DNA from: Amphirosellinia nigrospora | Lineage: Eukaryota; Ascomycota; Sordariomycetes; Xylariales; Xylariaceae | Assembly (NCBI GenBank): GCA_004123355.1 | Contig: SCHM01000002.1 | Span: forward strand, 7,723,569-7,787,568 | Reading direction: 5' to 3' | Length of the DNA: 64,000 bases | Shown: positions 58,833-59,825 of the stretch, piece after piece | Layout: the number at the start of each line of letters is the position of its first letter | How positions within the stretch are numbered: the first letter of the stretch is position 1 | Program-made: the position numbers and the translations under genes | Notes under the pieces: model-generated | Seen by the model: the letters and a program-made list of their open reading frames with translations, nothing else | What the model was told of the DNA's origin: nothing | The model's database searches: none

Positions 58833-59427
58833 CTACTATAGTTGTAAAACTTATAAATAAACAATTATATATTTATATACGCGCACTTTTTAAATAATAG
58901 CCGAAATTAATATTAATTTATATATAGTTTAATTAAATAATTATAAACTTTTAATATATATTTAAGTTATTTTTAATAATATATATAACGTTAATAATTA
59001 TTAAACTTAATATTAATATATATTTAATTATTAATATATATAATAAAAACTTATATTATATTATTATTTTTTTTATAAATATTATTTATATATTTATATA
59101 ATTTATTATTAAATAATTTAATAGTTTATTTTTGTTTTTATTTTTATTTTTATTTTTAAATAAAAAAAATATTTTTATTTATTGTTTTTTGTTGCTTTTA
59201 GTTCGCCCCGGCTAGCCGATCTAAGTTATATTAAGCATATAATATTTATAAAGCTTTATTGCTATTTTTTATACGCTAGTTTGTTAAGCTTTAGTTGTTA
59301 TTATTATAATTATTATTTTTAAAGTTGTTAATTTAATATTAAATTTTTTTAATATTTTATTAATTTAATTAAATAAATAATCTAAATAATATTAATTTTT
59401 ATTTTAGTTTTATTAAAACGTTTATTT
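56931..59427. other. RIP-degraded DNA with a 35-T run
   Basis: Contains an uninterrupted T35 run at 58,796-58,830 and a small dyad AAACGTCCGAACGTTT near 58,346. No gene supported. Confidence 0.6.
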
Positions 59428-59454
59428 TATTATTATTATTATTATTATTATTTT
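59428..59454. repeat. (ATT)n microsatellite
   Basis: About eight ATT units immediately before the GC-rich island. Confidence 0.85.
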
Positions 59455-59456
59455 AA

Positions 59457-59752
59457 TACAAGAAGCCTGGGGTAGGAGTGTATATTATGGTATCTGTAAG
59501 TCTAGTGGTGTTGTAAAGGTAGTGGTGGTGGCCCGCGGCCACCACCTACCTTATATACGTGGGGCTGTAGCCAGTGGTCAGGTGACCCACCCTACGTAGT
59601 GGTCAGGTGACCTACCCCACGTAGGTGGGGTGGCCACGTGACCCACCCCTGGGTGGGGTGTGCCACAGCCACTGGTCACAGCCACGTACAGCCATAGGGT
59701 GACCCCAGTGCCCTAGGGGGCACTGGGTCCCCTTACCTACGCGTAGCATTAT
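59457..59752. mobile_element. GC-rich, unmutated foldback island (about 300 bp)
   Basis: The only strongly GC-rich stretch in the AT block, with abrupt edges. It holds the palindrome GGTGGTGGC-CCGCG-GCCACCACC near 59,522, two tandem copies of about 25 bp (AGTGGTCAGGTGACC plus YACCCYACGT) at about 59,573-59,622, the motif CCACGTGACCCACCCC, and a 10-bp stem CCCAGTGCCC / GGGCACTGGG near 59,705. CpA and TpG are abundant, so RIP has not touched it. No open frame or RNA gene recognised. Likely a recent or size-protected MITE. Confidence 0.8.
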
Positions 59753-59825
59753 TATAGCTGTTTTTTTTATTATTATTAGTTTAGTTTATTATTTATATAG
59801 TTAAAAATAATATAAATTATTATTA

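Follow-up and report, generated by a model that had tools for sequence, protein, structure and literature searches.

The window analyzed here, a stretch of 64,000 nucleotides from contig SCHM01000002.1 of the ascomycete Amphirosellinia nigrospora, raises the question of what the short GC-rich island that it carries in AT-rich DNA may be, and how the island has kept its composition. A first-pass annotation had described a sharp-edged, palindrome-rich block of about 300 bp, and had proposed an undescribed MITE or a structured non-coding element, left untouched by RIP through small size or recent arrival. The island itself is borne out: it spans window positions 59454-59748 on the minus strand, and its 295 bp have a GC content of 58.6%, against 8-10% in the flanking DNA, with sharp borders. 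The edges first assigned to it, 59457..59752, lie 3-4 bases from those found here, while the dyads named in the annotation and the duplicated 25-bp unit are present. Our analysis indicates that the island is very probably the minus-strand solo LTR of a small, protein-less, TRIM-like family of LTR retrotransposons, with the following features:

59454..59748, minus strand: probable solo LTR, 295 bp, based on at least 17 LTR copies, which occur in this genome at 10 or more loci as solo, LTR-internal-LTR or tandem arrangements
59524..59546, no strand assigned: palindrome GGTGGTGGCC-CGC-GGCCACCACC, with arms at 59524-59533 and 59537-59546
59550..59557, minus strand: TATA-box-like TATATAAG in the LTR, a putative promoter by inferred function, present in 14 of 15 LTR copies
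59573..59622, no strand assigned: 25-bp direct repeat of two units, 92% identical, at 59573-59597 and 59598-59622
59704..59727, no strand assigned: palindrome CCCAGTGCCC-4 nt-GGGCACTGGG, with arms at 59704-59713 and 59718-59727

On the minus strand the window LTR runs TGCTACGCG...CTTGTATTA, the right-hand end being ...CTTGTGTTA in most other copies; the LTR thus read starts with TGCTACG and ends with TTGTGTTA, for which the window copy has TTGTATTA. In the same sense the GGTGGTGGCC/GGCCACCACC palindrome lies just downstream of the TATA-like box and the CCCAGTGCCC/GGGCACTGGG palindrome near the start of the LTR. Among the 15 aligned LTRs, with the alignment read by eye, both 25-bp units are complete only in the window copy, and part of the extra unit is also seen in the two outer LTRs of one other locus, L012.

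The first-pass annotation had called for a genome-wide search for copies. Searches of the window's own genome (48.1 Mb in 11 contigs; all repeat counts are lower bounds) recovered relatives of the island at 72-92% identity over most or half of its length. These searches, combined with manual reading, place at least 17 LTR copies at 10 or more loci, together with two fragments of 62 and 59 bases (L019 and L020); the island is not single-copy, and we rejected a single-copy gene because of these relatives elsewhere in the genome. Solo LTRs are found at three loci (the window, L009 and L015). Four loci have the order LTR-internal-LTR, with element lengths, taken from the edges, of ~1308 bp (L010), ~1413 bp (L011), ~1382 bp (L013) and ~1503 bp (L014). 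Three LTRs lie at the single locus L012, the L016+L017 locus is an LTR-internal-LTR copy interrupted by nested gypsy insertions, and L018 is a truncated copy. The internal region measures ~0.8-1.0 kb and is of the same kind in all six loci that retain one, and the LTRs are mostly 258-295 bp long. The four longer copies tested (L010, L012, L013 and L014) contain no stop-free stretch of more than 164 aa. Two details of individual copies were also recorded. At L012:4507-4529 the terminal 23 bases of the last LTR are repeated once more ahead of the target duplication, and the L010 copy (C4:11766788-11768122) lies ~1.6 kb from the end of contig C4 and is perhaps subtelomeric.

Alignment of the element edges for target duplications, also among the checks first suggested, showed duplications at most loci. 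With the edges defined, in window orientation, as TAACACAAG...GTAGCA, an exact 5-bp target duplication is present at seven of the nine loci that retain both outer edges, while mismatched pairings of loci agree in 2 of 72 cases and the other boundary shifts from -4 to +4 (k = 5) match at no more than three of the nine loci. The copy at L010 misses an exact duplication by one base (AATTT/AACTT). The window copy fails the strict 5-mer test (TATTT versus TTATT) and, if one additional T is allowed on the left, has TTATT at each side; its exact junction base is blurred, as the junction sits in a TTA microsatellite. The split locus L016+L017 has TTATT on both of its outer edges, 18.7 kb apart (C4:7644539 and 7663254), and we treat it as one element because these distant edges share that sequence. 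At the window copy the insertion site comprises:

59100..59453, no strand assigned: left flank, belonging to a dispersed AT-rich repeat of older date that was the insertion target, from repeat matches
59448..59452, no strand assigned: left target-site copy TTATT, followed by the extra T at 59453, from the flank table
59749..59753, no strand assigned: right target-site copy TTATT, from the flank table and from paralogous flanking repeats without the island

The segment 59100-59420 is matched in full or nearly so at no fewer than 28 other places, with 70-87% identity, among the 40 of 133 candidates that were scored, and a small GC-rich patch (window 59203-59219) lies within this dispersed repeat. 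Empty sites, at which the flanks of the window copy abut without the island, occur at 12 or more loci of the flanking repeat; eight of the 12 were read, and all eight are continuous. The suggestion of a recent arrival is right in so far as the element entered DNA that was already degraded.

The longer copies carry a primer-binding site, TGGTGCGGTGAG, of 12 nt, two bases (AA) past the LTR end. An intact site is found in L014 and in one of the L012 units; in the other L012 unit, as well as in L010, L011, L013 and the split copy, it carries transitions. It is an exact complement, over 12 of 12 nt, of CTCACCGCA plus CCA, the 3' end of three intron-bearing tRNA-Phe genes. ARAGORN labels these genes Ile(gat); by our own reading of the anticodon loop, ACTGAAGA, and of the intron that follows it, they are more plausibly Phe(GAA). 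The match was not blind, as the pattern used to find the genes was derived from the observed primer site; it gave eight matches (control 7), of which three are the tRNA genes and five are not. Earlier, 39 distinct tRNA sequences taken from 50 loci had been compared with the primer site and gave no 3'-end match longer than 6 nt (the scan scored 63 of 1644 candidates), and an acceptor-stem pattern for the matching tRNA gave eight matches (control 46), none of them tRNA-like on inspection. Self-priming was considered and set aside, the longest word shared by the primer-site region and the window LTR being 6 nt. The TATATAAG box, seen in 14 of 15 LTRs, has the orientation required by the primer site. 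Transcription from the plus strand was rejected, as this box and the sole primer-binding site both lie on the minus strand.

Other hallmarks of LTR retrotransposons are unevenly represented. Direct terminal repeats around an internal region, a duplication within the 4-6 bp range and a tRNA primer site are all seen; a polypurine tract and TG...CA ends are not. Ahead of the 3' LTR of L010-L014 and L017 there is TATGTGTGTGGCATT, or a mutated form of it, and no polypurine tract. The LTRs end in TG...TA at the outer edges of all nine loci, the canonical TG...CA being absent, and one inner LTR end is mutated in each of L013, L014 and L017. Despite the noncanonical ends and the lack of a visible polypurine tract, we file the element as a small non-autonomous LTR retrotransposon.

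In order to follow point mutations in the family, 15 of the 17 LTR copies were aligned, with the interrupted copies L016 and L018 and the fragments L019 and L020 omitted. Changes were counted against the commonest letter of the 15 LTRs; these rows share ancestry, so the counts do not amount to a formal test. One row, L010_3240, extended 60 bases too far; the columns concerned lie outside the counts, while the GC value of that row is too low. The alignment contains 133 C:G>T:A changes, 20 reverse transitions and 33 transversions, and 85 of the 133 C:G>T:A changes fall at CpA/TpG, which accounts for 48 of 160 C/G positions. In the window copy four of the five substitutions are CpA>TpA or TpG>TpA, and the island can no longer be called untouched by RIP. 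Comparison of the LTRs within elements reveals a similar picture, with differences that are mostly RIP-style in four of the five elements. The L010 pair has 13 differences and the L013 pair 14, all of them transitions and 11 at CpA/TpG in each case; the L014 pair has 13, with nine of the CpA/TpG type and two transversions, and the L011 pair 30, with 16 of this type and three transversions. The exception is the outer pair of L012, in which seven of eight differences are transversions, against the RIP trend; this excess may be an effect of the alignment, the stretch being rich in repeats. Whole-element GC content is 48-56% in L010, L012, L013 and L014, ~34% in L011 and ~37% in the L017 part of the split copy, the last two values including a few dozen bases of AT-rich flank. 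These base changes show that the copies were grazed by RIP-type mutation after insertion. The island most likely owes its GC content to a landing that followed the mutation of the surrounding repeat, with only light RIP-type change since.

A different account of the GC-richness is that the island, whatever its origin, is protected mainly by a size below the threshold for RIP. A minimum of ~400 bp is reported for Neurospora (PMC2621366, partial text), and in Podospora most solo LTRs of crapaud have escaped RIP, an outcome that the authors of that study ascribe to size (PMC10787394, partial text). Against this, copies of 1.3-2.5 kb also have the GC content of 48-56% at four of the six longer loci, and a gypsy element of 5.8 kb with two identical 212-bp LTRs (L095:1787-7565, C4:7644786-7650564) has 50.9% GC, so a size below 400 bp is not the whole reason. 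Solo copies also carry changes of the CpA/TpG type (four in the window, none in L009 and seven in L015), and a 275-bp repeat of Stagonospora nodorum is strongly RIPed (PMC2621366, partial text), which speaks against a strict size threshold. We therefore regard size as unlikely to be the main cause. Protection by size, as first suggested, fails to explain the family, in which longer copies are GC-rich, and may help the solo copies, for which a size effect on top of age is possible by analogy with what is argued for crapaud (PMC10787394, partial text). Age fits the retention of GC better than size does, and a late arrival combined with weak or rare RIP fits best.

With regard to the identity of the island, a solo LTR could also derive from a full-size autonomous retrotransposon, the coding copies of which have been lost or are too mutated to be seen. 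The window does hold one LTR only, and heavily mutated elements exist in this genome. The six loci with an internal region, all of 0.8-1.0 kb and of the same kind, argue against this origin, as does the failure of own-genome searches to find any coding copy with this LTR, and we consider it improbable.

A structured non-coding RNA gene, or a dispersed regulatory RNA, has still less in its favor. On each strand the island folds more stably than any of 200 shuffled sequences (z of -5.35 on the minus strand and -4.96 on the plus strand), so the RNA-folding check first suggested does return strong folding. The two strands fold with nearly equal strength, as expected from the palindromes alone, and no selected structure is apparent. 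When the minus-strand fold was scored on the other 14 aligned copies, 1139 pair cells comprised two compensatory changes, 77 one-sided changes, in which pairing is kept after one change, and 33 broken pairs; the one-sided cells carry little weight, because C>T alone can turn G-C into G-U. The dyads thus display no covariation and nothing indicates a selected RNA structure, contrary to the proposal of a structured non-coding element. No Rfam match reaches the gathering score in the window, L010, L012 or L014, and known RNA families were rejected on this basis; the seven below-threshold matches on the island (best E 0.049) are to unrelated families. Furthermore, the ends of the island coincide with target duplications, and an RNA gene appears very improbable.

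A MITE or other short foldback DNA transposon, moved by transposase cut-and-paste, would be short, non-coding, multi-copy and palindrome-rich with short target duplications at its sides, and the first-pass annotation was correct to expect a multi-copy mobile element with target duplications, but the island has direct LTRs and no terminal inverted repeats (its ends are TAACACAAG and GTAGCA), at six loci an internal region bearing a tRNA-complementary site is accompanied by two or three copies in direct orientation around it, and LTR-internal-LTR loci carry one duplication across their outer edges, which leaves this reading with almost no credibility.

The solo LTR of a small retrotransposon can be compared with several known systems. 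TRIMs are shorter than 1000 bp and have LTRs of 100-250 bp, whereas the element described here is 1.3-1.5 kb long with LTRs mostly of 258-295 bp and no polypurine tract was seen; it shares their lack of coding capacity, 164 aa being the longest stop-free stretch in L010, L012, L013 and L014. The element is thus outside the strict definition of a TRIM in its length and its polypurine tract. TRIMs are also known from the ascomycete Venturia inaequalis (PMC4646964, partial text). Helenus elements, TRIMs of rust fungi and some Agaricomycetes with tRNA-derived sequence in the LTR, are likewise non-coding and have 5-bp target duplications and solo LTRs (PMC10886601, partial text). Unlike Helenus (TRIMp3), the LTR described here has an unconvincing B box (best match with three mismatches in 11) and a TATA-like box instead; A-box-like matches with one mismatch are common in the LTRs, and the window has no match to a tRNA model. 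The persistence of GC-rich solo LTRs in a fungus with RIP is shared with crapaud (PMC10787394, partial text), from which the present family, judged by description, differs in being short and non-coding. Retrozymes are non-autonomous retrotransposons of plants with hammerhead ribozymes (PMC4918200, partial text); a small non-autonomous element is common to both, and the structured LTR prompted a test for such ribozymes, but Rfam searches gave no hammerhead match. No published description of the element was recognized in the literature searched, in a comparison by description. On the same footing, the family is apparently a new one of a known kind, and an ordinary mobile element. It adds a TRIM-like case with a clear tRNA-Phe primer site.

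These features point to a life cycle in which RNA polymerase II would transcribe the element from the TATA-like box in the LTR, and tRNA-Phe would prime reverse transcription at the 12-nt primer-binding site, probably in trans by the enzymes of an autonomous LTR element. Integrase would then insert the copy and make the 5-bp target duplication, and recombination between the LTRs may later delete the internal part and leave one LTR. Of this cycle we infer transcription, mobilization in trans and the recombination step. A search for the autonomous partner by the primer-site pattern found exact matches at 14 places (control 12, no enrichment); three are the family's own, and beside the other 11 this LTR is absent in the 61 bases read. 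Of 32 places with reverse transcriptase matches, the one read is the gypsy element described below, and no partner emerged from these searches. We tentatively suggest, giving the combination slightly less than an even chance, an undescribed small LTR family primed by tRNA-Phe, with a partner that has left no recognizable copy, the late spread of which, alongside that of an unrelated GC-rich gypsy family, would be due to RIP having turned weak or rare in the lineage. The island marks a datable event, the landing of an element in repeats that were already degraded, and such a late insertion stands out in a RIP-eroded genome. Lightly changed, moderately changed (L011 and the split copy) and saturated AT-rich stages coexist here, and may be used to track the strength of RIP over time; should RIP have faded in the lineage, the LTRs, with their graded CpA loads, would serve as a clock of that fading.

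The 5.8-kb gypsy element at C4:7644786 has an unbroken frame of 1075 aa, with reverse transcriptase, RNase H and integrase zinc-binding matches above the Pfam cut-offs and an integrase core match below its cut-off. It interrupts the U5 of the small element's split copy and is bordered on each side by ACCC, a 4-bp duplication. Its family was considered as the helper and rejected as a relative, as it has a different LTR, 4-bp duplications and no TGG primer site directly after the LTR. Four other places in the genome have the same reverse transcriptase score, which suggests late gypsy activity.

At the split locus (C4:7644539-7663254; L095 and L098) the small element is divided over 18.7 kb by an older, RIP-mutated gypsy with an AATA duplication; this older gypsy itself holds a young gypsy copy, in addition to the young one in the U5 of the small element. 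The truncated copy of the small element at C9:1136440 is also touched by gypsy, with no matching duplication. In total three gypsy insertions touch the small family, among at least ~30 insertion loci (43 LTR matches, paired manually). A separate sequence, L111 (C9:207260-207320), is exactly complementary over 20 nt to the 3' end of tRNA-Phe with its CCA; judged by this complementarity, it may serve another LTR element as primer site and could lead to the helper. Contig C9 (1.33 Mb) holds 15 of the 32 reverse transcriptase matches, far above its share of the genome, and is perhaps an accessory chromosome or a transposon-rich fragment.
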